Source: Pegea sp. RAD2-039 (lineage: Eukaryota > Chordata > Thaliacea > Salpida > Salpidae). From it: a stretch of 64,000 nt of DNA. The stretch lies in the NCBI GenBank assembly GCA_034620365.1, contig JAQGEQ010000263.1:1240001-1304000 (forward strand), in the 5' to 3' direction. The notes below the pieces were generated by a model. That model was not told the DNA's origin and made no database searches. It saw only the letters and a program-made list of their open reading frames with translations. This document shows, one piece after another, positions 8,611 through 64,000 of the stretch. Every line of letters begins with the position of its first letter. Within the stretch, counting starts at the first letter, position 1. Made by a program: the position numbers and the translations under genes.

Positions 8611-10495
8611 ATCTAAACTTCAGTGATTTCTTAAAGAAGCAATCTTTCATACATCCTCAGAGGTTCATCGTTAAAAATTAAAAAACTCAGCAATTTCAAT
8701 AACACCCAGTGGACTAATAGCTTTTTTGATAGACTAATCACGGTTTGGAATCTTTTTTCCGACTCCATCACTACATCAAAATTTTGTTTTTTGAAAATAT
8801 GTTATTTCGTTTAGAAGTGATATCTTTATTTTTTACACTCATTTTCTATTTTCAATCCATAATATATACTTATCTCTATGCCTCTGTAGTGTTTATATTT
8901 ATTATGCATTAAATATGATAAACTGCGGCACTCAACACATTTTCCTTATTTTTCCGCTCACATTGTTTATTTCTGTATAATTTATCATCTTCAGCTTTGT
9001 GTTGGACAAAATGTAAACAAGAAATTTAATTTTTAGTATTAATAAAGATTATGCCTAGAGTATATTCAGAATTTATTGAAGAAATATTTAAATTGACTGA
9101 ACAGTTCGATCTTCAAAAACTTTTTGATAGTATAGACAAACCTTGCGCTCGATAAGGAGGACGCTTGGACGCTTTTTTCTTATAACATCATGTATAAAAC
9201 TTATCATCTTAGTGGTACAATGTAAGCTTCTCTAAAAACAAATTAAAGTCATAAAAGAATCCTATATGATTCACACTTATTATAATAAACAAGCTAATAA
9301 ACGCAGAGCTTTAGTCAAACTTCTGTAACCTTAAAAAAATTGCGGACGAAATACTTGTAAATAAAGCATAATTACAAATAAAAATTTGAGATACTCCGAG
9401 TATTTGAGCTTCTTTTAGATATAGACTGCATTATCAACCCAAAAGAATTTGCTGGTTTTCTAAGTCTTTTGTTTTTATCTTCCCTTAATACTTAGCTATC
9501 ATATTTTTTTTTTAATTTTGTAGCAATAAGTTATTATGAATACTTTAAATGAAATATTTTAAGTCATTTAAAAAACATATGTTAATCAATTAAGTTCTAA
9601 CCGTAAAGAACCATTCAAAAAATATTAAATTTTAACTATTTTTTTACCCATTTTTAGTTTAGAAACTCTGAAATTTTAAGATTTTATATGATTATTCTTC
9701 CAGACAAGTTTATTTTACAAAACTTGGTTCATATGTTTCGTTTCGGATATTTTTTTTATCACATGTAGTTTATGTCGTATCTGTATTTAAAAATTATATC
9801 AAATTTTCGTTTAAATATATTTTTCTATTTCATTCAGTCATTTCTTCTAAAATTTTAATTTCGTTAACTATTTAATGTTTTATTAATGAATTTTAATGCT
9901 TTTAGTAATAGTAGTTTTTATTATTTATTTTTTTTTTCATTTTTTAAAGAAATAATCTGAATAGAATCTAATTAATATTTAAGATATTATTGATGTTTCT
10001 TTATTATGACAATGATATAATATTAAAATAGTATGAAAAATAAGGGTATCAAAATTCCATTTCTCAAAAAAAATTATAAATAAAAAATTTTGGCAAAATC
10101 TTTTTTAGTAAATATTTGTACAAAATAAAATTGTTTAGATTTATATATTATACTACCAGTGATATATACTATTATTTTTATTAACTATTCCAAACCAGTA
10201 AAGTTTATATTTTATTTTATTTGAAATACAATTTATATAATTTATTTTTAGATTATATATCTATTTTTTTAATACAAATAAATCTAAATTAAGCATGAAT
10301 TATTTACTTTTAATAATGTTATTTAATCTTTATAACCCCAGTATTAAGTGAATTTTAAAATTTATAAATTGAAAATAAAATAGATGATTTGAAGATGTTA
10401 TTTATATTTTATATCTATAAATATTATTAGAAATAAATAAAATATATACTAATGTATTATATTTTTCTGATCATTTAGAGATAATCTGATTGAAT
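8611..10495. other. AT-rich intergenic DNA
   Basis: This is strongly AT-rich spacer up to the NCBP1 start codon. No open frame with recognisable similarity is present. 9050-9170 is slightly more complex but I could not match it to anything. Confidence 0.5.
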
Positions 10496-23401: not shown

Positions 23402-24502
23402 ATGGAAAGAGACACACTTTTTAAAGATTTACAGGAAAAGGTTGAACAAGCTAATGAAGATTTATTATTTGGAAAAAGAAAACTTGATGAATTAGAAGCG
23501 CTAAAAGTATTTGAGTTATTGATTTTATTTACTAAAATTTATTAAATTTTAATTAGATGAATTTAAAGAAATATATTTTTTTTTTAAGTTTTTTTTTTAA
23601 TTCTAAATTGTTATTTATGTTTTTTACTTAATATAATTTACTCATATCAAACCATTTGTTTTAATTCTTTAAAAATTAGAATAATTTTTTTTTGTGGTTA
23701 TTTTGATATTTTGTTTTTATTTCTTACTTTTTAAAAAATATTAATTATTCCCTCTCATTTATATTTTAAAGTTGTTTATATAAATAGTTTTTATATGAAA
23801 ATAGATATAGAAGTTTTTTATGCAACTAATAATTAAATTCTTTTAATTTTGGTGCTTTAAAAATTGTTCCTTGTGATCAGATTATGAAACTCTTAAAGTT
23901 GAAATTTTTATAAATTTATAATCTAATTTATTGATACTTTGTTTGATATTTATAAAAAATATAATTATCAATATACATAAGTAACAATTATTAATTTATT
24001 ATTAGCTTTTATTTTATAATAAATAGTTTTCTTTTTACTTTTATTATTTATATTTGTTTCATAGAAAAAGAAAAAAATATCTGATGAGAGTTTAGAAGAA
24101 TCGTCTAAAAAGTTTGATGAAAAAATCAAATATTTTGAATCACTTGTAAATCTCCCAAAACAATATGTTAAAGATTTTGATCTCCCTGATGACGTCATTG
24201 CTAAATTCAATGATCAACGTGAAGATAGAAAAAGTTCCTTAAATAAATTAGTGATGCAGCAAATGAACCAATTAAAATTATTTGAAGAAAAGAAGAAAGC
24301 TTTGATGGAAAGAAGAAAAAAGATGTCTGAAATAAAAATGAAGCACGATTTACTTTATAATATTTTGAAAATAAAGTTTATGGAAAATTCTGATCAAAGA
24401 ATTAAAGGTGTGATTCTAAGTGATTCTAAAAGCTTACCAGTTTGTTTTGATCTTGCAAAAAATTTATCAACTACAGATATGTTTTGGAGTCAGTTTAAAT
24501 AA
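23402..24502 (+). CDS. Small coiled-coil protein, possibly SPC24-like kinetochore subunit
   Basis: Two exons, 23402-23506 and 24065-24502 (TAA), joined in phase 0, give 180 residues. Residues 1 to about 125 are charged and heptad-like (MERDTLFKDLQEKVEQANED; KLFEEKKKALMERRKK), suggesting a long coiled coil. The last 55 residues form a compact-looking segment, IKGVILSDSKSLPVCFDLAK then STTDMFWSQFK. Its spacing (I-K-G, hydrophobic strand, F-D, then a helix with a final W) recalls the RWD-like head of Spc24. Length also fits (human SPC24 197 residues). This is a pattern-level guess, not a confident homology. AATAAA at 24563. A TGACGTCA falls in exon 2, encoding DDVI. It ends 508 bp tail-to-tail from Delphilin. 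Confidence 0.6.
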
Positions 24503-25010: not shown

Positions 25011-28000
25011 TTAATTAAAAGTTACTTGAAACTTATTGATGAATTCATTGAAGATACTGAAGAAGTTTTGGATGTTGATCTTAGATGGATCCTCTCCAAA
25101 GTACATTGCCGCCTCATGAAATTCTTTTAAACTTGATAAATGCTTTTTCTCTAACTGAGTGATTGATTTATCACTTCTTAAAAGAAATAATTTCATAACT
25201 TCTCTAAAAATTAAATTATTAAAAGAAGATTTGAAAGTTGAAAATATCAAACTCGAATTGATCTTCTTCTGAATATCTCTTTAATAAATTCAAATCTTCT
25301 TTCAATTGTTTCCAAGTTCTTTTCAAACTTTGTAGCTCTTCTAAGACAAGTGGATAGATAACTACAAAAAAGATTACAAAAAGTATAAAGTCCTTGAACT
25401 AAATGATTAGAGAGTTTAAAGATCAAATGGATGATGAAATAAAAAAATTTGTAAATAAAAAAGTTTCAAAAATTTAATAATTGATGATAAAATTACTGAA
25501 AAAACTTTTCAATCGAAAAATGAAATTAGATAAATGTTTAAGATCACCTTTTGATGCTTCTGGAATTGATGTTAAGTCATCAGCAAAATTTAAAGTTTCT
25601 TCAAACTTACAACTCATTGTATGTACCAAGATATGCAACAAATTACATTTTTTGTTTGAAGTTTTTGTAAAATCAATCTAAAAAATAATTAAATAATTAA
25701 AAAGAAAATAGAAAAGCGATGATAAAAATGCTAATATTTCTAGAAAAGCTAGAAAGCGCATTTGTCAGTAAACGAAGTCCTCTACACTAAAGATAGTTTG
25801 TCTGAACCAATTTTATTCACTTCTAGTTGTTTATATTTTGCATTCTAACTTGTTTAATATGCTTTTAGCTAAAAAGTCAAAAATTAAAACTTGCTTCAGA
25901 TAAAAAGTTAATTCTGAAGCCCACGGCTTCGGAAATCCGGTTATTCCCCTTATTTAAATAATTCCCGATCGCTAAAATTAATTGCAAAACTTTCAACAAT
26001 TTCCAACTAGTTTGTAGCTGACGCGAAGCTTTTCGAGTCGAATCAAGAATCTGAAAAATTTTGAAATTAATGAAAAAAATTCTAAAAATTTTTCAGAAAC
26101 TTTTTCAACATTCTTCTTTCGATCATCAAAAGTTAATTTGAAGATAAGAAATTTCAATCTGACGTCATAATCGACGAATGACGTCATCTGTTCGAGAATA
26201 TTCAAATTTAAAACTGAAAAAGAGAAAAAAGCCAAATTCGTACTTTAAGAACAAATAAGTCAGCTTGATTGAGATCGCGCAGGTTGCCATGGAAACAACG
26301 ACATCTTCTCAACTCATCTTGATTTGCAGAATAAAATAAAAGTTGTTGAAATTGAGAAGCTTCCAAAATTCGATGTGACGTCATCAGCAAACATTTGATC
26401 ATATCTTCAGGTGAAATTTTCAAATGAGCAAGAATAATCGCTGTAAATCGATGATCACGTCATCAACATCATCATGACGTCATTAACATCAATATGACGT
26501 CATCACTTACACAGATTGTGAGCTTTTTTGTGCGCCAGCAAGCCCAAAGACTTCACAAATCTTTGAGATGCTCCTAAAACTAATGATGTCATCAATGATG
26601 TAATCAATGACGTCACAAACCTTTCACATCGACGCACTTGATCGAAAAGTGTTTCCTGAGATTAAGACTTTTGATGACGTCATTGATTTCGGTGACATCA
26701 TCATCACGTAATTGCCCCCAAAATGAAGTTTGAAAATCTTCGAAATTAATTTTCTCCCAATTGATTCGCTTCATTGAGATTTGGTTTGTGACGTCATCAC
26801 ATCGTGACGTAGATGGAAGTGGAGGTGGGGTAGGAATTCGTGGTGATGACGTCATCAATCGTTGAAATGTGAATTCATCATCATCTCGATTCTGATTGTT
26901 AAAAATATTTCGTTCCGCTTCAATGAATATCGAATTTTGGATTTTTGAATTTTTGAATTTTTTTTTCTGAAATTTTTTTTTCAGTTGTGACGTCACTGAA
27001 ATTACTCAACCGTGAAAGACTTCACCTTTGAACTTTCTGATCTGAGTTTTTTAGAAACTTTACCAGTTTCAATCACATTGCCATGACAACTTTGATTAGT
27101 GATGACGTCATTAATAAAATCATCAATATTAGTTGTTGAGTCGTCGACCACATCATCATTAAAAGTGATGACGTCATCGTAATCACTCAACTCTAAGGCA
27201 AACTCATTGATGACGTCATCAATAGATGTTACTGCAACGTTTTGCTCCTGATTTTCAGTTTTGATTTGCAATGTTGATGACGTCATCGTGGCTTCAGTGA
27301 CTTCATAATCTACATCCTTAATGACGTCACAACATTCAGCTGCATTGAAAACAAGATCTAGCAAAAATAAGGTTACGTCATCGCATAATGACGTCATTGT
27401 TGTCATGAAAACTTGCCATCGATACTGGTAGATGGTAGCTGAGGTTGTTTGCTTGTTTCTACGTCATCTAAAGATGTGATGACGTCATCAGTTACTTTAA
27501 TAGCAACTTGAATTATTCATTTTATGAAGTCACCTTATGACGTCATCAAAAACTGTGACGTCATTATTACTTACTTGCACGATTGTAAGTTCGTTGTGAC
27601 GTCATTGACGCTTGATCTAAACTGATGTCGTCATCACCAAATGAAAAAATTCTTTGCTTTCTCGTGTTGATGACGTCACGATCTATCGCTGTATCGCTGC
27701 AATCGCTTGATGGGGTATTGAGAAAAGACGAGCAATTAAAAACAACATTAGTGACGTCATCATCACTACTGATGACGTCACAAACGCCTTGAGAACGAAT
27801 TAAACCGATTCTGGCGACTTTAGAAGCTCTGAGAAGCTCAGTAGCGCGCTCAAGTGACCAAATTGTTTCTGAATTTATCTACAAAATCTTTTTTTAATAA
27901 AAACAAACAAAAAACTCGATTCTAACCTCAACGATGACGTCACCGCTTCTGACGTCACTTAACTGGGCGGAAGTGTTCGGTAGAACTTTGCTGACGTAAA

Positions 28001-28405
28001 CCGGAAACGATCCTTCGATTTCGATACCAAACTTCCGCTTTTTTGAAGATCTTCAAAATCGCGTTTTAAACGCTTTGATGACGTCATCAAATCCACTCAC
28101 ATCAAACTAATCGTCTTTAATTGTGACGTCACACTCATCGACGGCGGTAGATGTGACAAATTTCTGACGTAGTCTTTGATGACGTCACAACTCCAATTTT
28201 CTACGTTTTTATCTTCGATCTTCAAAAAATGCAAATGAGACACAAATGACGTCATCAGTAGTGACGTCACCTGCACTATTTTGTCACCAACTTTCAAACC
28301 AGACAGTTTCGCGACACCGAAGTCGCTAAGTGCGATGACGTAACAAGGTCCATGACCAAAAATAGAAAATCCGAAAGATTCAGGCCACATCTTCGCGCTC
28401 TTCAT
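25011..28405 (-). CDS. GRID2IP: Delphilin-type formin (PDZ-PDZ-FH2)
   Basis: Fourteen exons: 28405-28271, 28219-28101, 28050-27927, 27878-27575, 27494-27417, 27357-27064, 26995-26621, 26573-26511, 26440-26244, 26187-26101, 26050-25895, 25677-25497, 25340-25253, 25203-25011 (TAA). Phases all agree and give 797 residues. PDZ1 (about 1-82) has WPESFGFSIFGHGPCYV, close to the Delphilin N-terminus; PDZ2 (about 88-155) has KFGIEIEGSFPVYVSKVLP. A divergent linker follows. The FH1 is a single RIPTPPPLP near residue 408. FH2 (about 426-797) has MKRINWEKI, FWGQLRDDD, AHLKISPEDM, LKVLQLILAIGNYLNK, VGFRINFLSE, MYFGEDPSKINIQNFF, aligning almost without gaps to vertebrate Delphilin. Formins nucleate actin; vertebrate Delphilin scaffolds GluD2 at Purkinje synapses. 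Eleven of 13 introns are 47-80 nt; two have GC donors. TGACGTCA recurs throughout. Confidence 0.92.
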
Positions 28406-28513
28406 CACCTGTCTTCTGACTTTCTAAAAGTTTTCTCGCTGAAAATATTTTCTTTTTTTATCTATTATTCATTAAATTTCACAAACTTCTTCTGTTCATC
28501 TTATGACGTCATC
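26160..28513. repeat. Cluster of 31 TGACGTCA palindromes
   Basis: I count 31 exact TGACGTCA octamers in this stretch, plus near-variants (TTACGTCA, TGACGTAA, TGATGTCA). Flanks are often extended to (A/G)TGACGTCATCA. Spacing is irregular, so it is neither a tandem satellite nor a CRISPR array. Copies lie in Delphilin exons, where they encode DDVI, MTS or VTS according to frame, and in most of its short introns. The octamer equals the CREB/ATF consensus. Confidence 0.9.
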
Positions 28514-35584: not shown

Positions 35585-36000
35585 ATGGCTTCAGTGACGT
35601 CATGATTAATGACGTCACGTTGCTAGAAAAAAATTTAGTGGGTTTATGTCATTGCGTGATGACATCGCTGTTGTCATAGAAAATTGTTATCAAAGCTAGT
35701 TGATGGTAGTTGAGCTTATTTACTCATTTCATCAAAATAACAAACCTTCGTGTAACAACACATCATTCCTTATGACGTCATTCACGCCCGCTTTCAACTG
35801 CTGACGTCATCACCATAGCAAATGGTTATTGTTTGCTTTTCAAGTTGCTGACGTCACCATGCCCTGCTGTTTCGCTACAATTAGTTGCATCGCTGATTTT
35901 TATGCAAGTTTATGCAGAAACGCTGATGACGTCATCACTAGTGACTTCACTTAAAAGATGTAAAGCTGCATCCTTCGAGAACTTTGTATATTGTTCTCAA
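35585..36000 (-). pseudogene. Decayed fragment of a Delphilin gene copy
   Basis: The + strand reads GGCTTCAGTGAC, a TGACGTCA-bearing stretch, then GATGGTAGTTGAG, CCTTATGACGTCA and GTTATTGTTTGC, in the same order as 27288-27850 of the Delphilin locus (exons 4-6 and their introns). Six exact TGACGTCA copies remain. Frames are broken and the spacing is shortened. The fragment abuts the outer end of the right repeat arm. Confidence 0.6.
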
Positions 36001-36079: not shown

Positions 36080-36480
36080 GAAATTATTTCTGATTTCCTG
36101 TCTTCGATTTAAGAAAACATTCAAGCACAATATAAAATTGCTCATCATTAATATTAGCAGTTGGAAAGATATTGCAGCAGATCGCTGCAAATGACGCTCT
36201 CTACTTCACAACAACTGAATAAAGAAGAAAATGTTTTAGTTTGTCTTTAACAACATTTCATAAGCACAACAAGGATATCCGTTGTCGGTCGAAGCAGGCC
36301 ATTATCATTACAAACAGAAGTATCCGCTAGATGTCTCACTAGCCGTCAAACATTTTGTCAAATTATTATAAATTAAAAACAATTTTCAACTCAAATATTT
36401 TATCAATGGAAAATTTCAGTATAAAATGAAAAAGTGACAAAATTTATTGAATCATATAAAAATGTTGTCTCACTGATTTC
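36080..36480 (+). repeat. Direct repeat upstream of U2 copy C (partner 39110-39500)
   Basis: Phrases such as AATATAAAATTGCTCA, CATTATC(A/G)TTACAA, CACTAGCCGTC and TTTTGTCAA recur in the same order at 39110-39500, just before the truncated U2. The U2-containing unit has therefore been duplicated in direct orientation as well as inverted. Confidence 0.6.
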
Positions 36481-36543
36481 AGTCGCCCACAAACACTAAA
36501 CTTTCCATCGTGCATATAAGCTCGCAGAAAGACACCAAAGGTT

Positions 36544-36755
36544 ATCGCTTCTCGGCTCTTTGAGCTAAGATCAAGTGTAGTATCTGTTCTTCTCAGTTTC
36601 AAACCTGAGAGGTAGGCCACTGGCCTACTCCAATGTTTGACTGAGTTTTTGGAATGGGATCAGCACGGAGAGCTTGCTCACCTCTGATCATGGGTCGGCC
36701 CGGTATTGCAGTACCTCCGGGAACGGCCCACCACACTCCCCATTGGGGAGTGATC
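36544..36755 (+). ncRNA. U2: U2 snRNA (copy C)
   Basis: A full 212-nt U2, identical by eye to copy B in the RNA part. The PSE-like box ACAAACACTAAACTTT is at 36489-36504 (-55 to -40). The TATA-like element is weaker here (CATATAAG). Confidence 0.94.
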
Positions 36756-37463
36756 TTTAAGCCAAATGTTTATAACTTGCTGGTATTTATTACCGAGATG
36801 TGGAGGCTTCTAAACATATAAAAAGTTGCTGAACATTTTCTTTCAGTTAAGTTTGAACCCCAACAAATTATATTTGTTGCAAAGTATTTATAGAATGATT
36901 CAATAATTAGAGTTTGAAGCAAAACTACAATTTTTATAAAATTGTTCTGTTTGTTTTGAAGATTTAAAAATTTTGAATTCTTAAAGAAAGATTAACATAC
37001 ATTGGAAAAATCATTTTTTTTAAACATTTTCATTTTATTACAAATATTTTTCAGTAAATACTTTTTTATTCGAATATTCATCATCAGTTGTTTATAACAA
37101 AAATATTATTATGTTGATAACATCACTTTGAAAACAAACTTTTTTATAATTCTTTGAATATAAGGTTATATATAGTTTAATAAATAAAAACTTATGAAAA
37201 TATTTTTCAATTATTATTCAAAATTTAGTAAAATTTCACCAAAGATCTTTTATCAACTAAATTTAATCATCAATTCAATCGCTGTCGTCTGTTGTTCGCC
37301 TGATGTAGTGACGTCAATAACCAAACAAGGATAAAATCGATGAGTAAATTAACGGGAATCTTTGATCCGATTTTTTCAATCTTAAAAATTTGAATTGTGT
37401 TTGCTGACTTGTTCTACTGACAATGTAAAAAGAAATTTGATCAGTTCTATCAAAAATGTCCTA

Positions 37464-37500
37464 ACAAACACTAAACTTTTTTCAATCTGTTGTATATATA
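37464..37500 (+). promoter_or_regulatory. U6 promoter: PSE-like box and TATA box
   Basis: ACAAACACTAAACTTT at 37464-37479 (-61 to -46) and TATATATA at 37493-37500 (-32 to -25), separated by 13 bp. A TGACGTCA occurs further upstream at about 37310. The layout is that of a Pol III type 3 promoter. Confidence 0.7.
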
Positions 37501-37524
37501 GACAGAGTCATTCGGTTCACTTAT

Positions 37525-37541
37525 GTACTTGCTTCGGCAGT

Positions 37542-37581
<40 letters not shown>

Positions 37582-37630
37582 GGCCCCTGCGCAAGGATGA
37601 CACGCAAAATCGTGAAGCGTTCCTCATTTT
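37525..37630 (+). ncRNA. U6: U6 snRNA (left copy)
   Basis: The gene is about 106 nt, starting GTACTTGCTTCGGCAGTACA. It carries ACAGAGA (37565-37571), the AGC-containing GATTAGCATGGCCCC, and the conserved GCAAGGATGACACGCAAAAT, ending at a T run (TCATTTT). U6 forms part of the spliceosome active site. Sequence is nearly identical to other metazoan U6. Confidence 0.97.
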
Positions 37631-37784
37631 GCTACTTGCTTCTCAGCGTGACGAACGTTTAGATATTTTAATATATATCACGTGATTTGAAACCAACATA
37701 AAACACAAATAAGAAAAAGCAGTCAGATCAGTTTCAGTTGTAAGTGTCTTCAATTTAGACACATTTTGAAGAAATTTTATCTAA

Positions 37785-37855
37785 ATATTTAGCGCAGAGT
37801 GACCGAGAGTTCTTGAAGGATGTCGGATTGTAATGGCGTGATGCACCTTCTACAA
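37785..37855 (+). other. Conserved GC-richer block between U6 and U5
   Basis: A block containing GCGCAGAGTGACCGAG and ATGTCGGATTG stands out from its AT-rich surroundings. It is kept in the other arm (41515-41580), where it reads GCGCAGAGTGGCCGAG. The start resembles the D-arm of a type II tRNA, but no T arm or B box follows. It may be a tRNA relic or an unrecognised small RNA. Confidence 0.25.
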
Positions 37856-38131
37856 AATACAATAAATTTAATATTATTTTTCAAATTAAATTCTTTTTAA
37901 ATAAATTTAATTTCTAATAATAAACAGCATAAGTAATTGCAATTGCTAATGAATACAGATTTTGTAAAATCATAAAGATCTTTAGAGTAAAACAACAAAG
38001 AAACAATTTGAGTAATTAGAAGTTATTTAACATTTCAATTTAAGAAATAACAAATTTTACAATTCATTTTTAGCTTTTAAACATTATTTATACAAAAATG
38101 TCGAGACTAAATGAGTTTATTGGAAAAAGTA

Positions 38132-38179
38132 TGACGTCATCACCCACAAATATCAAACTTATAAAGTTGTATATATATA
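38132..38179 (+). promoter_or_regulatory. U5 promoter: TGACGTCA, PSE-like box, TATA-like box
   Basis: In order: TGACGTCA (38132-38139), the PSE-like ACAAATATCAAACTTA (38146-38161, -53 to -38) and TATATATATA (38170-38179, -29 to -20). The CREB/ATF-type octamer lies just 6 bp before the PSE-like box. The same arrangement is kept in the right arm. Confidence 0.6.
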
Positions 38180-38198
38180 GATGAAGTTGCATTTGAGG

Positions 38199-38325
38199 TA
38201 CTCTGGCCTCAGTTCAGTTCACGAATGAATCTTTCGCCTTTTACTAAAGATTTCCGTGGATTGGGGCAATACAATGAGTCTTGATTAGTTTTTGCTTGAC
38301 CTGTAGCTATTCGGCGCGGGTCTTC
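38199..38325 (+). ncRNA. U5: U5 snRNA (left copy)
   Basis: It starts TACTCTGGCC and contains the invariant loop 1 GCCTTTTAC (38236-38244) in TCTTTCGCCTTTTACTAAAG, followed by ATTTCCGTGG, an Sm-like site TTAGTTTTTGC, and a 3' hairpin (GACCTG...CGGGTC). Loop 1 holds the exon ends during splicing. Ends are estimated from the family and from the conserved hairpin. Confidence 0.95.
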
Positions 38326-38639
38326 TTTTCACAAATAATCTGATAAAAGTTTATATTTGAAGAATTACTTTTTCAAGTATAATCGAAATGCTTTTATCTT
38401 TATTCAACATTTCAATTTTCTAGGTTCAAATGAAACTAGTTTTAAAATTTGATTTCAATTTATTTCAGATTAAAATGCTTAGAAAAAATATGATTTATTC
38501 CTGGGCATCAAGTACAGGAAACATGCAAAGAATAATACAGGCTTTGGATACCAGGTTCATCAACTTTGGCAAAATTTTTAACTTTGTCAGTAGGATAAAT
38601 CTGTTCTCGATGTTGTTGAAGATTGGATGTCAGCTAAGC

Positions 38640-39632: not shown

Positions 39633-41026
39633 TATTTACTAGAAACTTCTTTCATCTTACAAGGATTAATCTTGAAATTGTTAAGGGCTTTTGTCAACGA
39701 TTGCAAAAACAGAGTTGGTAAACATCTAATTTTAGTGTTTCATTGGTTTGAAATTTACTTTTTATAGTTTTTAATATGATTCTCGAGATATTACTAAGCT
39801 ATTTTAAACTGTGTTTGTTGCAAAGTATTTTTACAAAATGATTCTATAATTTGAGTTTTATACAAAACTACATTTTTTTTTGAAATGTTTACCCTAATTT
39901 TAATTACAGTTGTTTTATACAAATTATTATTGAATATATAATATTGGACATATTGAACAGTTTCACTAGAAAACGTGTTTTTGACTATTTATGGGAAAGA
40001 TTTGTTATCCAAAAAAGCTTAATTGCCCGACCTTATTATGGGGTAGGCTTTATTTTTTTAAAGGCTAAATGTTGAGGATCAACGTGTCTCACTGGGGTTT
40101 TTATTCATCCTCAAACTGGTTTGTAAGAAAATGTATAAATGTGCTAACAAATATTTTACTCTTTCGCCGAAAGATATTCTTTATTTTAAAATTGGGAATA
40201 CTAAAGACGTCTCTTTACGTTTAAGATTCTATGATTTAAAAAAACTCTCTCGACTTAGTTTTGTTTTTACCATTATATGTGTATAACTGTAAAAATCCCT
40301 TGAAATGCAAAGAGCACTTATTCTAGAAGGATTATGAAGATTAACTGATGAAAGTGAGAACGGATAACAAATCAAATATTCAAAATTAGATAATTGTCAA
40401 ATCACTAATTTCTCAACAAAAGTTAGAATATAAAAAACAAATTGTTGAAGATCCGTCAGATCTTGAATAAAGATAGATTCTTTCAGTAGATGAATAAAAC
40501 GCTTGCTATAAAAACTTTGAAAAGAAATTTGAAAGAAAAGAGTAATATTTTTGTAAGTTATATTTGCTGGCGAGAGAATATCATTTGATGTTACATTTGA
40601 ACTGAATTTTAGTCGAAATAAATAATTCACAAACTGCTGAGATAGGCAGAATTGATAAGATCAAATTTAGATTCAAATAAGCATCTTTCAGCATGTGCAA
40701 CTATAGATAAAGCCGGCTTGGAATAAGCACAATCAGATAAGAGTTGGTCGAGTTAATAATAAAACTGTTCAAGGTTTACGGGCTTGTCAGTTTCAAACGA
40801 AAACATATAAAAACAAACTGATCTGAAAATATTATTTACTAAGTTAAAAGCGAATTTGAAAAAATATGGTTTTGTACTAAATTAAACAAATATAAGAAAC
40901 AAGTAAGAAATGTTACTGAAGAAATATATAAGTTGAATAATAATAAAAAAACATTTCGATTTGAAAAAGTAATTCTTCAAATATTAACTTTTATCAAATT
41001 ATTATTCATCAGATTATTTGTGAAAA

Positions 41027-41153
41027 GAAGACCCGCGCCGAATAGCTACAGGTCAAGCAAAAACTAATCAAGACTCATTGTGTTGCCCCAATCCACGGAA
41101 ATCTTTAGTAAAAGGCGAAAGATTCATTCGTGAACTGAACTGAGGCCAGAGTA
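41027..41153 (-). ncRNA. U5: U5 snRNA (right copy)
   Basis: Mirror copy of 38199-38325 with loop 1 GCCTTTTAC intact. One difference in the 3' part is seen (TGTTGCCCC against TATTGCCCC on the + strand reading). TGACGTCA and the PSE-like box are conserved upstream (41191-41220). Confidence 0.95.
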
Positions 41154-41723
41154 CCTTCCAATGCAACTTCATCTATATATATACAACTTTATAAGTTTGA
41201 TATTTGTGGGTGATGACGTCATACTTTTTCCAATAAACTCATTTAATCTCGACACTTTTGTATAAATAATGTTTAAAAGCTAAAAATTAAATTCTAAAAT
41301 TTGTTATTTCTTAAATTGAAATGTTAAATATCTTCTATTTACTCAAATTGTTTCTTTGTTGTTTTACTTTAAAGATCTTTATGATTTTACAAAATCTGTA
41401 TTCATTAGTATTTGCAATTACTTATGCTGCTCATTATTAGAAATTAAATTTATGTAAAAAAGATATAATTTGAAAAATAATATTAAATTTATTGTATTTT
41501 GTAGAAGGTGCATCACGCTATCACAATCCGACATCTTTCAAGAACTCTCGGCCACTCTGCGCTAAATGTTTAGATAAAATTTCTTCAAAATGTGTCTCAA
41601 TTGAAGACACTTACAACTGAAACTGATCTGACTGCTTTTTCTTATTTGTGTTTTATGTTGGTTTCAAATCACGTGATTTACATTAAAATATCTAAAAGTT
41701 TGTCACGCTGAGAAGCAAGTAGC

Positions 41724-41772
41724 AAAATGAGGAACGCTTCACGATTTTGCGTGTCATCCTTGCGCAGGGGCC

Positions 41773-41812
<40 letters not shown>

Positions 41813-41829
41813 ACTGCCGAAGCAAGTAC
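41724..41829 (-). ncRNA. U6: U6 snRNA (right copy)
   Basis: Mirror copy of 37525-37630, identical by eye across the RNA. The upstream TATATATA and PSE-like ACAAACACTAAACTTT are also kept (41850-41890). Confidence 0.97.
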
Positions 41830-42602
41830 ATAAGTGAACTGAATGACTCTGTATATATATACAACAGATTGAAAAAAGTTTAGTGTTTGTTAGGACATTT
41901 TTGATAGAACTGATCAAATTTCTTTTTACATTGTCAGTAGAACAAGTCAGCAAGCACAATTCAAGTTTTTAAGATTGACTGAAAAAATCGGATCAAAGAT
42001 TCCCGTTAATTTACTCATCGATTTTATCCTTGTTTGGTTATTGACGTCACTACATCAGGCGAACAACAGACGACAGCGATTAAATTGATGATTAAATTTA
42101 GTTGATAAAAGATCTTTGGTGAAATTTTACTAAATTTTGAATAATAATTGAAAAATATTTTCATAATAAGTTTTTATTTATTAAACTATATATAACCTTA
42201 TATTCAAAGAATTATAAAAAAGTTTGTTTTCAAAGTGATGTTATCAACATAATGATATTTTTGTTATAAACAACTGATGATGAATATTTGAATAAAAAAG
42301 TATTTACTGAAAAATATTTGTAATAAAATGAAAATGTTTAAAAAAAATGATTTTTCTAATGAATGTTAATCTTTCTTTAAGAATTCAAAATTTTTAAATC
42401 TTCAAAACAAACAGAACAATATTATAAAAATTGTAGTTTTGCTTCTAACTCTAATTATTGAATCATTCTATAAATACTTTGCAACAAATATAATTTGGGG
42501 TTCAAACTTAACTGAAAGAAAATGTTCAGCAACTTTTTATATGTTTAGAAGCCTCCACATCTCGGTAAAAAATACCAGGAAGTTATAACAATTTTGCTTA
42601 GA

Positions 42603-42814
42603 GATCACTCCCCAATGGGGAGTGTGGTGGGCCGTTCCCGGAGGTACTGCAATACCGGGCCGACCCATGATCAGAGGTGAGCAAGCTCTCCGTGCTGATC
42701 CCATTCCAAAAACTCAGTCAAACATTGGAGTAGGCCAGTGGCCTACCTCTCAGGTTTGAAACTGAGAAGAACAGATACTACACTTGATCTTAGCTCAAAG
42801 AGCCGAGAAGCGAT
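42603..42814 (-). ncRNA. U2: U2 snRNA (copy E)
   Basis: Full 212-nt U2 in mirror position to copy C. The PSE-like box is ACAAACACTAAGCTTT at 42869-42854 and the TATA-like ATATATAC is present, so the promoter is closer to copies A/B than to its palindrome partner C. Confidence 0.94.
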
Positions 42815-42853
42815 AACGTTTGTTTGCTTTCTGCGAGTATATATGCACAATGG

Positions 42854-42869
42854 AAAGCTTAGTGTTTGT
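42854..42869 (-). promoter_or_regulatory. PSE-like box of U2 copy E
   Basis: ACAAACACTAAGCTTT on the minus strand, 40-55 bp before the U2 start, as in the other U2 genes. Confidence 0.6.
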
Positions 42870-43139
42870 GGGCGACTGAAATCGGTGACAACATTTTTCA
42901 TATGATTCAATAATTTTTGTCACTTTTTCATTTTATACTGAAATTTTTAATTGATAAAATGTCTGAGTTAGAAAATTGTTTAAAAACTAAAACAGAGTCA
43001 GATGCAAAAGAAATTTATTGTAGATTTTCTCTATTTTTTTATGTTGGTTTTTTTTACTATACTTCATCTATTTGTGGAGTAAAGAGCGCCAATGGGAGTG
43101 ATCTGTTGCTATATGCGTTTGAATTCTGATATTAATGTT

Positions 43140-55100: not shown

Positions 55101-58100
55101 CAACTGACCTTTTTTTGGAATTCATTTTCAAAGAAACATTGTTTATGACAATAGATGATGTCATGATCAGGATACTCAAGCTGATGAAGATGAGGATTAG
55201 TAGATGAAGGAGCAGATAAGATTAAGAGTCTTACTTCGCATAAGGGTTTTCTTACCCCATTACCTAGTACAAATCGCCCGCAATTGTGACAACTTCTGTG
55301 GTTCAAAAGTTGCTGACCAAACTTCGCGTCATCATTCGTGATTGATTGAGAAGAACCCTGATGATGAAGAGTTAATTTGCATAATCGCGTGTATCTTACA
55401 AACCTGTGAGGCTTCGACGCGGTTGTATTCACTCTTCAAATGTTCCTTCTGTAATCAACAAATATGCAAATGAAGTGGTCATCACGTGATCATCTTTACC
55501 TTGTTATGGTCAGATACTACTTTATCATCGTCTTCCTGGGCATGTTTGTATGAAGTAATTGGAGTCCCAATGATCCTACTCAGCACCGACACGGTTTTAC
55601 GAAGAGTCTAGAATCAAATCAAAGTCAACTTCCGGAAGATCTTCATCGTGATCTTACCTTCAGATTCATATCTTTGAATTTGAACTCGAGCGTGAGTCCT
55701 TCTTCTTCTTCTACATTCAAAAAGCTCCCTGAAAATAAGATTCAAGTTGAGATCGAGTTGCCGACCAGTGGACAGGTAACTGACCGAAGAGTGGTGATGG
55801 TGTCCTGGTCAGTAGTGGATCGGTACCAGATTCGTATTTGATTGGTTCATAGGTGTCCTCTGTGGACCGGCCCATCGTCCCAATCATCAACATCCGCTCA
55901 CAAGCCAGTTGGTCCTCAATAATAGAATCGTGGTCCGGTTCCGGTGAAGATGGGACGCCGATATCGACCTCAGCCAGGTCACGAGATTTCAAACTGGACA
56001 ACAAGACCATGACTTGGTGGCCACCGTAACCAGTGGACCAGTACCTTCGTTGTTGGATACTTTCAAGGTCCTGACCATCTGCTCCGATATGTGGAGGAGT
56101 CGGGAAGGAATCTGGGACCTTGATAGCGGTACTGACAGCGACTGTGGAGGAAATCTTACTCCCTTCTTCAACAGAATCCAATCTCTCCCTCTTTGGAGAC
56201 GGAGGATTCGAATAAGGAGGGGTAGGAGGTTGAAGATAGCTGAGTGGATCCTGCAAAGAGTCCTCTGTGATCTTGTGAAGAGCAAAGAGCGACGACTTAC
56301 TTTAGTGAAGACGAGATCATAATAATCAGGAAGACTCTTAAAAGAGCTGTTCCCGAGTGCCCCTTCTAAAGTGGACTCTGATTGAACCAGACCAGTGCCC
56401 TTGGGCATACACATACTGTAATTGGTCTTAATCTCAGGTTCCACAAGTTGAAGAGGTGGCAACTGCAAACATCTTCTTATATGACGTCACCAAATGACGT
56501 CATCAACTCACCGGCGTCCAATCAGGCTTCAGCTTTGGGATTTCCATCATATTGAGATCTTTGGACTGAGAGAGTTGAATAGGAGGAGCAGTAGTGAAGG
56601 AGTCACGATCGTCGATGAATTTCTGTTTCTTTCTCTTGTTCCCGCGCTTCTCCTTCGCGCCTTTACCCTGTCTTCGTTTCTTTCCCGCTTCTTCCTGCTT
56701 AAAGTGATCTGATTGGTTAACAGCAGATGACAAATACAAGTGATGATGCCGGTGTCTGTATCTTCACTCTAATCTGACCATGTGTTGACAACAACATGCA
56801 AATTAACCCCAACAACATTCAACTAATCAGCTGTTTTGTTCTCGAACATAAAAAAATAAAGATCTTTGCTCGATTAGAAGAGAAGAACTAAGCAAAGAGC
56901 TAGTGAGAGACACTTATGATCAATTGTTTCATGAAAAAGATGATCTCTCGGTGATTTTAGAGAATGTGAAGATTAGTAGAGCACAAGATACGGCTACATG
57001 CTTATGCGAATAGCTTATGTTAATCAACTGCGATTTGTAGAGATGCATATCGAGTTAAAACAACTAAAGTAACTAAAAAGCAAGCTACGAAACCGACTAC
57101 AAGACATTGGTAAGAATTAAAGTGCATCTTCTACTAGCTTGGGGAGATTTAGTTTAGTGAGCCCCTGTCTCTTCCCGGCTAGTATTTTGTTACGACAAAT
57201 TTCAACTTTTAATTCCATCATCCATCTGAAACTTACAATATTCTCAGCTTTTATCAAATGGCGGAATAACTCTTGATGCTGATTGGTGGAAAGGAATGTG
57301 ATATTAGCATTCGATGAATTTGAAGAAGAAGATGAAGTTAAATGTAGTTGTTGATGTTGATTGCTGCCCATTTCCATCGTATTATTTTTGGATATAATCT
57401 GGAAAAGGTGTTTAAGTTTGAAAAACTGTCCCAACCACTGACTGATGATTCGATACGAGGACACTGACTGATTCTAACTGTTTCATGATGATGTGTGAGC
57501 TAATCAGAAGGGAGAAATTAGGGGGGGGGGAACAAAAACCGGCCCTCACGATAATATGTAAATTTAAACAGTTTTAAATATTTTAAACAATCGATGCCTT
57601 GTCATCATCAGTATCACCATTGGAAATATCAACAAGGAGGACTAACTCTGGATTCGCTTTCATTTTGATCACATCCATGTAGTAGCCAATGGGGTGCGAT
57701 TACCTTTTGACCGGCAAGATTCGTATTTTCCAACCGATTTATGTAGGCAGCGCCTTCTCGAACAACGGACTCGATGGTTTCATCAATTGAATTAATGGTC
57801 TATAAAAAAACAAACGTCACAACACACTGTCGCGACCAATCACCTCGGCCTTAAGTCCCCCCCTTAAACTGTCCTTTCATGGTGGTCGAGGACTTTTAGG
57901 GCAACGACTTTGACTAGGCGTCAACTAAAGCAAAAAAGTCTGCTTTGATCTTGAGCAAGTAAAAAAGGAAAGACATAAGGTAATCAAGTTTGCTCAACTA
58001 ATGTGAGCTTACATGCAAGATTTATACATCGGTTGTTATTTGCAAAAATTAGTTGATATCGATTAGAACGTGTTACAAAGCTCCCTGTATTGTCTACAGG

Positions 58101-61100
58101 AAGAGAAGTTGTTGAAATTGTGGTGTTATTTTGATTATAAAAGTGATTTCTAATGAGATTTCTAGTGATAAACGGATATAAAAATCAATGAAAGAAAAAT
58201 AATCAATGTCTAATTTTTTAAATGAATAATTAAAAAGATTAAATTGATGTATGTTGCGTATAATGCTGATGCTAATTTCCAAGAGGACCCGCTGGATATG
58301 ATCAACAGGTTTCACAGATTAATTTGCACAAAAAATTAAACACAAAATTACATAGTTGTTGTTGACAGCACTAAATTAAGTTACAAAGCACCAAACAACA
58401 GTAACTACTTGTCGTGGTTGGTTTGAAAAGAACAAATATCTAACCATGGCTTCAGAGAAAGTATTAAAGTTATGATTTGAAGATTTAGATAACTTGTCAG
58501 GATCAGTGGCCATCAAAAGATCGTATTCCTCCTTGGAAAGTCTGCTGGGAAGGGGGTTTGTGACAGAAAGAGGTCCTGATGGGTTTATGAAGCTGTTGTG
58601 AGCGCTCATGGAAGAGCAAGGACGTCTAGGGAGATATATGGATGTTGCAGCTGGAGGTGATGTAAGAAGATCTGAAAATTAGTTGGTTTGGTGTCCAAAA
58701 AAATCATCAACCAATCAGAAACCAACCTTGACTCTTCATATACAAAGTTTTAGAGATTTGAGAGTTTTGATCTAAACATTTTCCTGGAATAAAAATGCTT
58801 GTAGGTACAAGAAACACAAAAATGATGATAACCTGTCGACGTGTTGATCAGGGGACCCTGTTGGACCATGGACTGTACCAACTGGTGTTGAGGTTGCACT
58901 GATACCTGCTGTGGTTGACCAGGTATCATTTTAAATCGAGTAAATTGACGCAAGGGTTGATTGATGCCAATTCTTTGGTGTACGGAACCAATTGGGATGC
59001 CACTGACAGTTTGTGAATTCATGAAGGTCTGCTGCTGTTGTTGCTGTTGTTGGATTAACTCGTTCAAGTTGCCCTGTTGGGGCGGTTGTCCTATGACAGC
59101 GGGCAAGGTGTGTAAGCAGGGATGCTGGTGTTGCTGGATTTGCTGAAAGATGAAGATTAGGATCAAATTGAGATCAGTTGTTGGAAGATGAAGACTTTTT
59201 AATTATTTAGTTGATTGTAGTCGAGAATTAAATGAAAAATTTCAAGAAATTCAAGAATATTTTGAAATGATTAAAAATCAGATAAAAAAATTTACAAAAA
59301 AAAGTTTCGAGTCGATAAAAATTCTGTGGAAATATTTCATTCGATTTTGTGAGGAGGATTTAAAAGTGGAAAGGGTAACATGAAGAATAGGAAGCTGGTT
59401 AAAGTAAGCCAAGTTCTTCAGTGTTAGAAGTACGTAGCGCAGAAAACTTCATCTAAAATCGATATTTGAAGAATATCTGATGCTTCAAGTAATTTTCAGC
59501 TCTACTACCCGCCGATATCAAGAAAATATTCAAAGAAATAAAAGCAATTAAAAGAAAAGTGTAAATTAGTGGATGAAGATTTAATAGAGGAAGATTGAAT
59601 CACAAGTTGAAGATCGGATCTAGAGATTAATTTGAGACTTTTATGATTAAAATAAAGATTGTGAAAATCACACGAGTGAATTAAAATGAAAAAGTTCTAT
59701 TTTAATATGTTTAAGCTCAAAATGAATAATTAAACGATTCCATTAATAATTTGTAGATTTCACGTAAAATTCTCGATGGTAATGACATGAACGCGAAACT
59801 TTGTTGAAACCAAATCTAGTTAATAAATCAGAAATTATCACAAAAGTTCAGAATAATTTAATATTCAAAAAAAAGAGAAATAAATAATTGAAGGAAGGTG
59901 AAGTTAACTGACTTGTTGCTGGACAACAGTGACGTCCATGCGACCAGTGACACTGACCGGCAAATTAGTTTCATTTTTCGATTTCTTCTTTCGTCGCCTT
60001 TTCGGTTTATCCTTTAAAGATTGAAGATTAAGATGAGGATGCACAGCATGAAAGATCACCTGATCTTGTTCTTGTTGCAACATCACCAACTGCATTCTCC
60101 CTGGATATTGAAGATGTTGTTGACGTTGGTCCACTTGTAGCAGGTTAGACTGATTATGTGGCTGGGCCACATTAACAAGGTTTCGGTCCACTGGTCCTTG
60201 GTAAGTATTTGGATGTGTAATGACTGGTTGTGAGTTGAGGACGCTGAGAATGATAAGAAGAGTATTTAAACGCTACATCAAAATTTGATTGAAAAAATCG
60301 ATGAGATGAATAATTAAAAAGCGAGCTTCATCGCTTGTTGCGTGATAAATATTTCATCAATAAATAATCACCCGGACAGACAGACAGACAAACAGACAGA
60401 CAGCTTGCTACAAAAACAACTAACTAGGTAAACTAAACACTGACCCTGGTTGAATACTTGCCGTCCCATTACTAGTTTTGACCATCTGACCACTTGCCAT
60501 GGTAGGGCTGGTACTGGTGGTCTCTATACTCTCTCCTGAATCAAATAAATATAAAATAAATTCGTCAAAAGCTTCGATAATAGTCGAGTAGATAACTTTT
60601 ATTATTTTGTTTATTAATTATTAACTCACCAGCGCCACCTGCTGGCTGGTTGGTGGAAGCGCGGTGTGTCACGGCGGGTTTCGCTGCAGCAGTCGACGTA
60701 GGAAGCGATGACGTCATCACGATGGGATCAACGGATGAGTTGGTACGTCCGGTTGTCTGCTGATGGAGAAGTGAGTGGTGCGTGACAAGAGCGGGTGAAG
60801 ACATGCGCGCGCGTTCGATTAATTGCGATTAATAAGTGGCTAGCTAGCTGATTGGTTGGTTGGATGTCGAAGAGAAGGTGAAGTAGTTTTTCAACTTTTA
60901 GATGATATAAAAACAAAAGTCGCTACCTGAGGATTTGTACAAGGACCTCGGGTGGATGGTGATTGGTTCTCCGTTTCTGCCTCTAAACTCTGTGAGCCGA
61001 ATTAAAGTGATTACATGAAAGGCTTGTGAGGATTAGGACACGTGGTTGATTGAGGACAAGTAGGTGAGGGTCGATTGATTTGTTAATTGATGTTGGTTTA

Positions 61101-64000
61101 GTAGTGTCAGGTTTGCAATTGGTTTGGATGAAAAAGAAAGATTTAAAAGATTTAAGGAGCTGGATTAGATGAAGCAACATGCAAAGATGAACTGAGTGAT
61201 GAGAATCAAGCAACAAATTGATCTCACCTCGAGTAAAGAGTGATGTTTTGAGAGCCAATCTTTGTAACCAGTTTTTTTGGTTTCAGAATTGTCATTATTT
61301 AAACCTTGATTAAAAATTGATATTTTTGAAGATGTAGTTGTTTGGGATATTAAGAAGACTTACCTGATACAAAGCTCCCTTGAACTACAAGAGGATTATT
61401 AGTAGCTTGACCTACAGCAACTATTTCTTCTCCATCAGCATTGGTTGCAGTAATCGCCTGATAACAAACGAATCAGTTGATGATTTAATCAGATGAAGAT
61501 TCAAACTGACTTGTGTGATATTTGACAAAAGTTTAGCTTTTACTTGATGTAAAGCTTCAGTAGATACATCATTAGCAGTTTTGTCGTTGTTATCAACAAC
61601 ACCAGGGTATAATTGACGAGTTGTCGCTGAATTTTGATGCTTCTTTTTTTGATGTTGTTGTTGTTGCATCACTACTTGTTGTTGATTCATTCTTTCTTGT
61701 CTGTAAGTTTTTTGTTAATCTCTAGCTCCACCAAGTGGTGAACACATACCTTGCGCGTTCTTGTTCCTTCTTTTCTTGATCAAGAAGATCTTGTAGAAGA
61801 AGAGGTTGCTCTTTGACGAGAAGAGTTTTTGGTTTCATAGGAGTTGTAGTGATGGAGCTTGTATTTAGGGGGTAAATTGCAGAAGGGTTTGGTGGTAGAG
61901 CTGTTGTGATTCGTTGTGTTTGTAGATTTGGATGTCTAGGAATAATAGTCGAAGTACCAGCTGCTGCTGTCAGAGGTATTTGAATAACTGGTGCGGGATT
62001 GGCCACCACTGGTCGTATTGGACCACTACCACATAATTGTTTGGTTGCAAACGCTGGTTTACTGACTTTTGAGGTCACTACCGCAATAGGACCAGTAATA
62101 GCTGGCGAAGCATGACCATATGCAAATGTGGCGGCGGTAGTGGACACGATATCTTTGATGTTGTTACAAGCAACTGACGTTGAAATATTTGTTGTTGTTG
62201 TTTTGTTTTCTGTCGATGTCGCCATGGTGACGACGCTCGATGTTTCCTCTATCTTAACCAATTCCACTTTTTCTTTCAATTCTTTTTCATTTGAATCTTT
62301 GGATTCAACTTCTTCGGACTTTTCGTCTTCAGGTGACGTCAGCTTCTTTTCTACGTCATCAACTACCTCTTTTGAATCTTCACTAGCTATCATCTCAGTC
62401 TTTTCTTCTTTTATCGAATTTATCTCAGCCTTTTTCTCATCATCTTTGCATTCTTCAGTCGTCACCACAACGCTGTCTGTTTTCTTCGTGACGTCATCAG
62501 CGCGCGAAACAACAGCGCTGGTCTTGGTATCAACAGAAGTAGTGGTCATCAGAATCGGACCATCAGATGGTTCAATTTTGACAGATGAAATCGCGATAGT
62601 GGTCGCTTGTGTGGTCGTTGCTACTGGTGTCTTACTGCTTTCCGCTTCACTGCTTTCCTGTGACGTCACCACGCTTCTCGGTGACGTCACTGTCGTGTTG
62701 GTAACAGAGGGAAGTCGTGACTGTTGCGGAGTTGAAATGGACATGGTGACCGGGACCACTTGACCTGCTTTCAGGATTTGTTCTCGTCGCGTTGACGCGT
62801 CCACACCTTGTTTTGAGTGACGTAATTCGATGAAGCCACCCGTCTGTAAGTGGTCAGTAAGTTAGTGGTGGTTGTGGGACAGGTGGTTCTTACATGAATA
62901 GTTGACTGCTGCAGGTGTTCGCTACACGCTACTTCCTGTTTGATGTTCGCGAAGCGTTCCATAGCAACCGTGTTGACCATAGCAACGCTGTTCACCATTT
63001 GTGATTGTTGCAGTGATTGTGGGATTCCTACAAAGACGCGATTACGCGATTGTCTCAATAACAGCGTGACGTCATCACCTGTGCTTACTCCAGGTTGGAG
63101 TTGTCGGACTCTGATCCCGGTTGGAAGAGTCACAGTTCCAGTAGGAGCAGATGGGATGTAGTAACGTGGACACAAAGGGTCGCTAGAAACGCGCGCGCCC
63201 AGGATTTGGGTGGGGTAAGCGGGCGAGAAGGAAGTTGCGGTGATTTGTGTTTGTTGCGTCATCACTGGTGACTGGGAAGGGTAGGGCGGTGGCGGGCGGA
63301 TATCGTTGCTACGCGATGACGTCATCCACATATTTGTAGTTTGATCAAAGCTGACAAGTCTGTACATAAGTGAACATGTGGACAGGTAGAGGTGGTTGAT
63401 GGGCCACACTGACCTGTGTTTTGATTTAGTTGTGGTCCGTTGATTGGCAGGTGATGGCGACGAACTAACAATTTCATTTGCTTCAAAATTCGATTTATCT
63501 GCAACGTCATCACTCAATCGCGGTTTGTATGACGTCATCAACGCACTAACCTGCTTGTGGTGTGTGGTAACCAACGCTGTAAAAGGGGGTTCTACTGCCA
63601 TCTACCGGAGACGGTGTCGCTCTCATCAACGACCCAGGGGCAGGACTCATTGGTCGTGGAGTCCCTCTCATCATTATATGTGGACTGACTGGGGTCATGG
63701 GCCGGACCATGGGGCTTTGAGGATAATAGGATGGACATGGGGAAGGTGAGGTGCCCATATTTGCTATTTCATGATAAGAACTGGTCCTGGGCAGCTTGTG
63801 CTGATTACCTGATGACGTCACGTTGTTTGGTGACGTCATCATCATCGATGTGTTCGCGATTTGTGATGCATTGATGACTGATGAGTATCGAGGCGACGCG
63901 TTGTGATGTTGTTGAAGTTGTCCATCATTTTTGATGGTGGTCACGTACATGGGTGTATGTGACATGATGCCCTGGTCACAAAGTGGTCATCAAGTTAGCC
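52133..64000 (-). CDS. KMT2C/KMT2D: KMT2C/D-type (MLL3/4, Trr) histone H3K4 methyltransferase, 5' end outside window
   Basis: C-terminal exons: 54571-54398, 54350-54189, 54135-53973, 53923-53778, 53719-53563, 53462-53326, 53277-53147, about 52969-52690 (acceptor uncertain), 52636-52446, 52387-52279, 52225-52133 (TGA). Extended PHD: CTLCGCVGDGDTHGVARLLN, WVHLNCALWS, CSYCQKRGATIQC. FYRN: MFHAIGQLSTHQMANFHS, PVGYRATRIYW. FYRC: LFPKYINGESLFGL. SET: FFHSKSSQYRR, NNVYLGRSRIQGLGLFASRD, EYIGQIIRSEV, RYINHSCNPNCVAEV. Post-SET: IPCMCGAINCRKWMN. The KFDFED..KIPC ending marks the KMT2C/D class, not KMT2A/B. Upstream lie Q-rich stretches (59020-59060, 60050-60130, 61640-61690), LLLQDLLDQEKKEQER (61760-61810), and Ser/Thr/Pro-rich exons 61722-62804, 62830-63600 and 63546-63965. 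The enzyme mono-methylates H3K4 at enhancers. Introns are short, mostly 45-90 nt near the 3' end. Internal exon borders between 54600 and 61700 are only partly resolved. Confidence 0.93.
57465..58370 (-). other. Low-information stretch inside the KMT2 gene
   Basis: Between the Q/S-rich exon ending at about 57260 and the exons near 58376 there is a run of nine G (about 57522) and AT-rich sequence. The reading 57660-57800 (minus strand) may contain a short exon but I cannot prove it. Probably intronic for the most part. Confidence 0.35.
59170..59900 (-). other. Long KMT2 intron
   Basis: AT-rich sequence with stops in all minus-strand frames lies between the Q-rich exon ending at about 59150 and the exon 60191-59904 (PKRRRKKKSKNE). 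I see no gene within it. Confidence 0.4.
60375..60402. repeat. CAGA microsatellite
   Basis: Several tandem CAGA units with one interruption (CAAA), inside a KMT2 intron. Confidence 0.8.

Follow-up and report, generated by a model that had tools for sequence, protein, structure and literature searches.

An exact eight-base palindrome is over-represented across the genome of a salp and crowds part of a Delphilin-like gene

The octamer TGACGTCA is a genome-wide, single-sequence signal at the level of the DNA in the tunicate Pegea sp. RAD2-039, and it forms dense clusters in gene bodies, one of them in a Delphilin-like gene on the minus strand of a 64,000-nucleotide stretch of contig JAQGEQ010000263.1 (assembly GCA_034620365.1, positions 1,240,001 to 1,304,000), which we refer to as the window. 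The window contains 54 exact copies, compared to a mean of 0.43 and a maximum of 2 in 100 dinucleotide shuffles. In the 105.7-Mb assembly (105,744,746 bases in 387 contigs) we counted 27,792 exact copies, i.e. on average one per 3.8 kb, whereas the seven counted among the 23 other palindromes composed of the same letters occur far less often (ACTGCAGT 969, TCACGTGA 4,614, AGTGCACT 237, AGTCGACT 694, TCAGCTGA 2,917, CTACGTAG 173 and GATGCATC 746 times). The shuffles and the counts of the same-letter palindromes rule out chance or base composition as the cause of the excess. TGATGACGTCATCA is present 1,972 times in the genome, its reversed control 0 times. As far as we know, such a feature is unusual for an animal. 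The open-licence papers in PMC do not contain TGATGACGTCATCA, and among the matches listed there for TGACGTCA we found, judging by titles and opening lines of abstracts, no description of an iterated TGACGTCA in an animal genome; the nearest literature, judged by its title, deals with variants of the cAMP response element (CRE) (PMC1796609).

The excess is also apparent if all octamers are compared with each other in a sample of 204 kb, consisting of the window and 14 ten-kb stretches, in which each octamer was scored once per 500-bp block and only octamers present in at least 10 blocks were considered. Here, TGACGTCA was found in 37 of 408 blocks with 1.3 expected, which is the greatest excess of any octamer, and ranks 2 to 6 were taken by octamers containing parts of it. 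After removal of the Delphilin cluster and of stretch L019 it still came first (23 of 384 blocks, 1.0 expected), so that the genome-wide favoured palindrome, which the original prediction had raised from the window alone, is confirmed with or without this cluster. Stretches L016-L018 and L020-L029 were placed at round coordinates, while L019 and L032 were chosen from the list of a 14-mer search (L019 for its richness), from which a second hot spot (L013-L015) and loci L001-L012 originate as well. The copies are unevenly distributed: seven of the 14 ten-kb stretches contain none and the others between 1 and 18, and 175 of the 204 one-kb bins are empty, while 10 bins contain at least four copies and the richest one 15. 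Tandem arrays were rejected as a source of the excess, the other top octamers by raw count being arrays in L021 and L025. These arrays (L021 at about 5000-7000, L025 at 1-2900) are long and readable as open frames (QLVPNHINWSQTTSTGPKP; CLLRLLFVTIVVCYDC), and words like GGTTGCTAGG are heaped in them.

Within the window, the octamer is concentrated in the following features of the Delphilin-like gene, which are given with their Pfam matches.

26160..28511, no strand assigned: dense cluster of 31 exact TGACGTCA, located within and between open reading frame (ORF) stretches and immediately upstream of the gene
28100..28423, minus strand: first PDZ-containing stretch, 4 copies (PF00595, E 2.5e-4, 21.8 bits, just below the cut-off of 23.2)
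27894..28052, minus strand: second PDZ-like stretch with 2 copies (PF00595, 24.3 bits, exceeding the cut-off of 23.2)
27005..27463, minus strand: linker ORF, 6 copies read as DDVI, MTS and DVI (relative P0122; no Pfam match)
26616..27005, minus strand: beginning of the FH2 domain, its ORF holding 4 copies (PF02181, E 0.001, 18.7 bits, alone below the cut-off of 34.8)
26208..26459, minus strand: FH2 stretch, 1 copy, read KCLLMTSHRIL (PF02181, E 3.2e-7, 30.3 bits, alone below the cut-off)
25877..26092, minus strand: FH2 stretch, 0 copies (PF02181, E 5.4e-13, 49.3 bits)
25474..25677, minus strand: FH2 stretch, 0 copies (PF02181, E 6.1e-9, 35.9 bits)
25011..25280, minus strand: last FH2 stretch, reaching the end of the profile, 0 copies (PF02181, E 2.1e-11, 44 bits)

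The order of two PDZ domains followed by five FH2 pieces down to position 25011, three of which exceed the Pfam cut-off on their own, is that of delphilin and supports the proposed identity of the gene. The count of 31 octamers in about 2.35 kb proved exact. Based on an approximate gene model, 17 of the 31 copies are located within five ORF stretches (1,583 bp) and 14 outside of them (769 bp), hence the octamer is denser outside; one apparent intron starts with TGACGTCA, and stretch 28100..28423 as read crosses an apparent micro-intron, which holds two of its four copies. The locus had been described as saturated, which applies to the 5' part of the gene and the edge upstream of it, where one site per 76 bp is found across 2.4 kb of exons and introns, but not to the remainder of the FH2 coding part (25011-26150), which does not contain a single copy.

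A second saturated gene was found at C1:2,049,490-2,053,418 with 30 copies in 2.5 kb and ORFs matching RCC1 and BTB in Pfam. A third rich stretch (10 copies in 2 kb) is, in our by-eye reading, presumably an adenylyl cyclase gene, and by-eye reading of translations leads us to take other copy-bearing ORFs for relatives of FHOD formin, tankyrase, HERC, RFC1 and PIKfyve. The suggestion that the concentration in one gene reflects local amplification was thus not upheld, given that the RCC1/BTB gene is equally dense and that the spacers are unrelated by eye. A satellite or tandem repeat is not supported, since the copies of the Delphilin cluster follow each other at irregular distances of 15-242 bp with no regular period, and neither is a mobile element, because no longer sequence is shared around the copies of the two hot spots and of 30 close pairs. 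A stretch of the RCC1/BTB hot spot that appears tandem by eye, with units of about 36 bp, would fit local amplification or a dispersed element bearing the octamer, but the best 20 matches between the two hot spots span just 16-44 bp and by eye the spacers of the 30 close pairs do not resemble each other, which makes this origin barely credible. In the BTB exon, HRFFLMMTSSLF of the first BTB domain aligns by eye without a gap with HRCVLAARIPYF of the second BTB domain of the same exon; the octamer replaces the residues usual there while the length is unchanged, which points to substitution and not to insertion.

In the two hot spots together, 61 exact copies stand against 19 occurrences of all 24 one-letter neighbours (about 4 expected from composition), and in the other 201.5 kb 60 exact copies against 44 neighbours. 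The same holds for the transition product TGATGTCA, which is found 5,503 times on one strand of the genome and 5,567 times on the other, in sum less often than exact TGACGTCA; this total of 11,070 compares with 2,673 for the reversed sequence. TTACGTCA, TGATGTCA and CTACGTCA are enriched in the hot spots, while most other variants are near background. Exact copies outnumber their neighbours, although under mutation alone a many-fold excess of neighbours would be expected; the octamers must therefore be of very recent origin or else be maintained. Were biased gene conversion the cause and the counts in equilibrium, a scaled bias of about 4.6 would be required to hold 61 exact copies against roughly 0.6 per neighbour after correction for background.

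The exactness of the copies and their presence both in ORFs and between them would also be expected from a ratchet like that proposed for the highly iterated palindromes (HIPs) of cyanobacteria, in which a repair or methylation system reading TGACGTCA or its CpG favours the strand bearing it, the copies being a by-product with no regulatory role. The genome contains 11 matches to the C5-methylase family PF00145, seven of them with open frames of 832-873 amino acids (at C57:819728-826344, C249:1740707-1742050, C32:10146-38173 and C52:9209-10639), as possible candidates for a cognate methyltransferase. One of these frames, in L030, combines a BAH match in two stretches with the C5-methylase domain and resembles a relative of DNMT1 in a single open frame; the copy number looks odd, and retrocopies or element-borne genes could account for it. 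No DNMT1-type enzyme is known to require a context of eight bp, and the preferred outer flanks described below suggest a footprint of more than 8 bp. According to PMC4390886, which also presents Elhai's model of HIP1 as a ratchet of this kind, HIPs occur about once per kb and near misses of HIP1 fall mainly on letters 1 and 8 and avoid letters 4 and 5. The near misses of TGACGTCA in the hot spots are arranged differently, with 9 of 19 at letters 4/5, 8 at 2/7, 1 at 3/6 and 1 at 1/8, and the copies are strongly clustered. Due to the methylase frames we keep the ratchet under consideration, and due to the deviating near misses we have lowered its chances slightly; altogether we regard it as rather improbable.

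The earlier comparison with HIP1 and with CREB/ATF sites stands in so far as an eight-base palindrome is over-represented genome-wide, in ORFs and outside, like HIP1 and the alternate HIPs, and core and flanks are tabulated for CRE-type sites. It does not extend to membership among the HIPs, to their density or to their near-miss pattern; in addition, TGACGTCA resides in the nuclear genome of an animal and differs in sequence from GCGATCGC and the listed alternates. HIP1 is a fair analogy, without membership being implied.

The coding regions point to a word that is recognised as DNA. In the hot exons, GACGTC encodes 15 of 23 Asp-Val pairs (outside such pairs, GAC accounts for 9 of 46 and GTC for 9 of 41 codons) and ACGTCA encodes 12 of 19 Thr-Ser pairs, meaning that both coding frames of TGACGTCA without a TGA stop are used. 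In eleven moderately rich ORFs the octamer accounts for 12 of 19 Asp-Val and 11 Thr-Ser pairs, as opposed to 1 of 9 Asp-Val and 1 of about 17 Thr-Ser pairs in five cold ORFs; the hot and moderate ORFs were picked for carrying TGACGTCA, which renders the codon count partly circular, and one of the hot exons crosses an apparent intron, both of which weaken this argument for a DNA-level word. The BTB exon has a relative that is 88% identical (P0121) and the Delphilin linker one that is 75% identical over 78% of the query (P0122). Among residues touched by the octamer, 49 of 52 are identical, compared to 205 of 251 other residues (Fisher p 0.023) and to 90 of 118 residues of matching type (D, V, I, T, S, M, N) elsewhere (p 0.005), which suggests a better conservation of motif-coded residues in these two fragments of relatives; as evidence for upkeep of the DNA word this counts for less, the comparison being one of two exon fragments at the protein level with uncorrected p values and non-independent residues. 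One MTS encoded by an octamer reads KTS in P0122, which shows that turnover occurs. Such conservation is also what selection on the encoded peptides DDVI, MTS and VTS would bring about, but the use of both stop-free frames and the higher density of copies outside the ORF stretches of the Delphilin-like gene leave this explanation, as the sole cause, with next to no probability.

The clusters are CpG-rich, although the edges of the CpG-rich zone and those of the cluster do not coincide exactly. With TGACGTCA masked, 400-bp bins of the Delphilin cluster have a GC content of 0.32-0.39 and a ratio of observed to expected CpG of 0.95-1.62, with mostly lower values in the flanks, and a ratio of 1.36 is reached in the copy-free bin directly below the cluster (25701-26100). 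The masked RCC1/BTB cluster shows CpG ratios of 0.63-1.44 and the same range of GC content, a copy-free bin above it with a ratio of 1.67 and a bin below it with a GC content of 0.29. The mean masked CpG ratio is 1.09 in the 10 bins with at least four copies versus 0.65 in the 175 empty bins. This difference would be consistent with CpG islands unmethylated in the germline, in which words containing CpG survive and the octamer is a by-product. However, the other same-letter palindromes with a CpG occur much less often (173, 694 and 4,614 copies) and most other ACGT octamers are close to expectation, so survival in CpG islands is largely refuted as the sole cause and, as an explanation overall, appears very unlikely. 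As in vertebrate CpG islands, kilobase-sized CpG-rich stretches lie in a CpG-poorer genome; unlike them, the clusters extend beyond promoters and one word is dominant.

Biased gene conversion, in which a bound motif would shield from or attract breaks and alleles with the motif would overwrite those without it, could leave GC-rich clusters as its footprint. We rank it second because the Delphilin cluster ends inside the gene and is GC-rich, more so when masked than most of its flanks. On the other hand, gene sequence may exceed intergenic sequence in GC content anyway, the contrast is weak on one side of the RCC1/BTB cluster, and the detailed profiles cover only two clusters; we consider conversion as the sole explanation unlikely, if somewhat less so than the ratchet.

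What we propose instead is that weak selection on binding by bZIP proteins, or a conversion bias, keeps TGACGTCA as a word at the DNA level, to which, taken as a whole, we give about an even chance of being correct. TGACGTCA is the classic recognition site of CREB/ATF proteins, and the matrices of BATF3 and ATF7 describe the same kind of site. The genome holds bZIP genes (12 Pfam matches). At 42 sites that were not picked for the 14-mer, the 84 readings show T or C next to the octamer 72 times, C at the following position 42 times and A after that 46 times, yielding GATGACGTCATC with a weak final A; a larger flank count of 172 sites includes loci picked for the 14-mer. The core with R..Y and the flanks of GATGACGTCATC agree with the CRE/bZIP sites tabulated in PMC9164029 (FOS GATGACGTCATCA, FOSL1::JUN ATGACGTCAT, CREB TGACGTCA); PMC9930257 gives GGATGACGTCATCC for ATF4. 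Copies are furthermore found upstream of small nuclear RNA (snRNA) genes of the window, at distances resembling those of promoter elements.

37309..37316: copy 216 bp upstream of the U6 snRNA gene (37525)
38132..38139: copy 66 bp upstream of the U5 snRNA gene (38198)
41214..41221: copy located 67 bp upstream of the U5 gene in inverted orientation
42042..42049: copy located 220 bp upstream of the U6 gene in inverted orientation

Thus, both arms of an inverted duplication of the U2-U6-U5 snRNA cluster (36377-38347 and 41005-42981, 96.2% identical over 1,982 aligned columns) carry the U5 and U6 flank copies, whereas TGACGTCA is absent within 300 bp upstream of any of the four full-length U2 genes. 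The snRNA genes of the inverted repeat also have a CCCACAAACACTAA-like element and a TATA-like box upstream. Selection on bZIP binding is ranked first on account of two observations, the preferred flanks and the promoter-like snRNA positions; both suggest a CRE-like function, and judged from the sequence a bZIP protein is the most likely, albeit unproven, reader of TGACGTCA.

According to this proposal, a bZIP dimer of the ATF/CREB or FOS-JUN type would recognise TGACGTCA as DNA, and new copies would originate in place by point substitution. Each bound site might confer a small benefit, visible to selection in a very large population, the size of which we assume; alternatively, repair or conversion favouring the bound allele could take care of the upkeep. 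The dense clusters in gene bodies would then be kilobase-sized, CpG-rich bZIP platforms, perhaps unmethylated, and the copies flanking U5 and U6 would occupy positions of promoter elements.

Several points weigh against bZIP binding as the cause. Transcription factor sites usually tolerate variants, and in the wider sample TGACGTAA (6 versus 4.0 expected) and TCACGTCA (6 versus 2.6) are near background, while in the hot spots TGACGTAA is enriched 5-fold and CTACGTCA 10-fold. We know of no enhancer with a comparable arrangement, in which a site recurs every 76 bp along 2.4 kb of exonic and intronic sequence, and the octamer differs from CRE/bZIP sites in how many copies there are, in their exactness and in the way they saturate gene bodies, exons included. 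Nor is it the sole favoured palindrome, since the E-box TCACGTGA is enriched as well (4,614 versus 237 reversed). Helical phasing is inconsistent between the two clusters: in the Delphilin cluster R is 0.16-0.19 at 10.8-11.0 bp (0.107 expected) with nothing at 10.0-10.6, in the RCC1/BTB cluster 0.26 at 10.0 and 0.17 at 10.2 with nothing at 10.4-11.0, where the local tandem stretch may be the cause of the peak. In the window and the L loci, neighbouring copies appear to be spaced preferentially by 15 and 18-21 bp, in the dense clusters as well as elsewhere. Selection, conversion or repair, and the methylation ratchet all fit the present data.

A broader interpretation, which we put forward tentatively and with less confidence than the bZIP proposal, is that of a true iterated palindrome in an animal, whose copies would multiply in exons and introns through point substitutions, alleles with the exact octamer being favoured as a result of its recognition at the DNA level. 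The recogniser could be bZIP shielding, conversion or methylation-linked repair, and the kilobase domains would reshape the proteins they traverse. Iterated palindromes are known from cyanobacteria, where their cause is still debated; a chordate example with a candidate bZIP reader would make the cause testable by chromatin, methylation and population data and, if true, would represent a DNA-level signal able to rewrite protein sequence on a large scale. PATC (periodic An/Tn cluster) sequences of C. elegans germline genes are likewise a DNA-level signal saturating gene bodies, but they consist of phased A/T runs in introns and not of an exact octamer in exons. DNA uptake sequences of Pasteurellaceae and Neisseriaceae are non-palindromic. 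They are similar in being short, genome-wide over-represented words, yet they are bacterial and tied to DNA uptake (PMC1939737).

The remaining copies noted in the window are listed below; those at the first and the last of these loci, like those in the snRNA flanks, had been stated at the outset, and the six at 35595-35934 are an addition.

24190..24197: single copy in the neighbouring ORF 24065-24502, read DDVI
35595..35934: group of six copies spanning 340 bp
56482..63838: 12 scattered copies, several of them in long minus-strand ORFs, in a candidate KMT2 gene

The six copies at 35595-35934 precede a U2 gene by about 600 bp on its upstream side, in a region without an ORF of at least 110 amino acids. 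On contig C1, TCACGTGA overlaps TGACGTCA at three listed places, near 23084, 555832 and 1212792. Finally, at 10490-12895 the window contains NCBP1 as a single open frame of 800 amino acids (ORF 10496-12895). Its protein similarity places the organism among the tunicates: among the best 120 of 555 matches, it is 96% and 58% identical to two metagenome or assembly proteins, and its best named relatives there are those of the tunicates Ciona intestinalis (56%), Phallusia (54%), Ciona savignyi (53%) and Clavelina (52%), while the vertebrates listed reach 45-48%.

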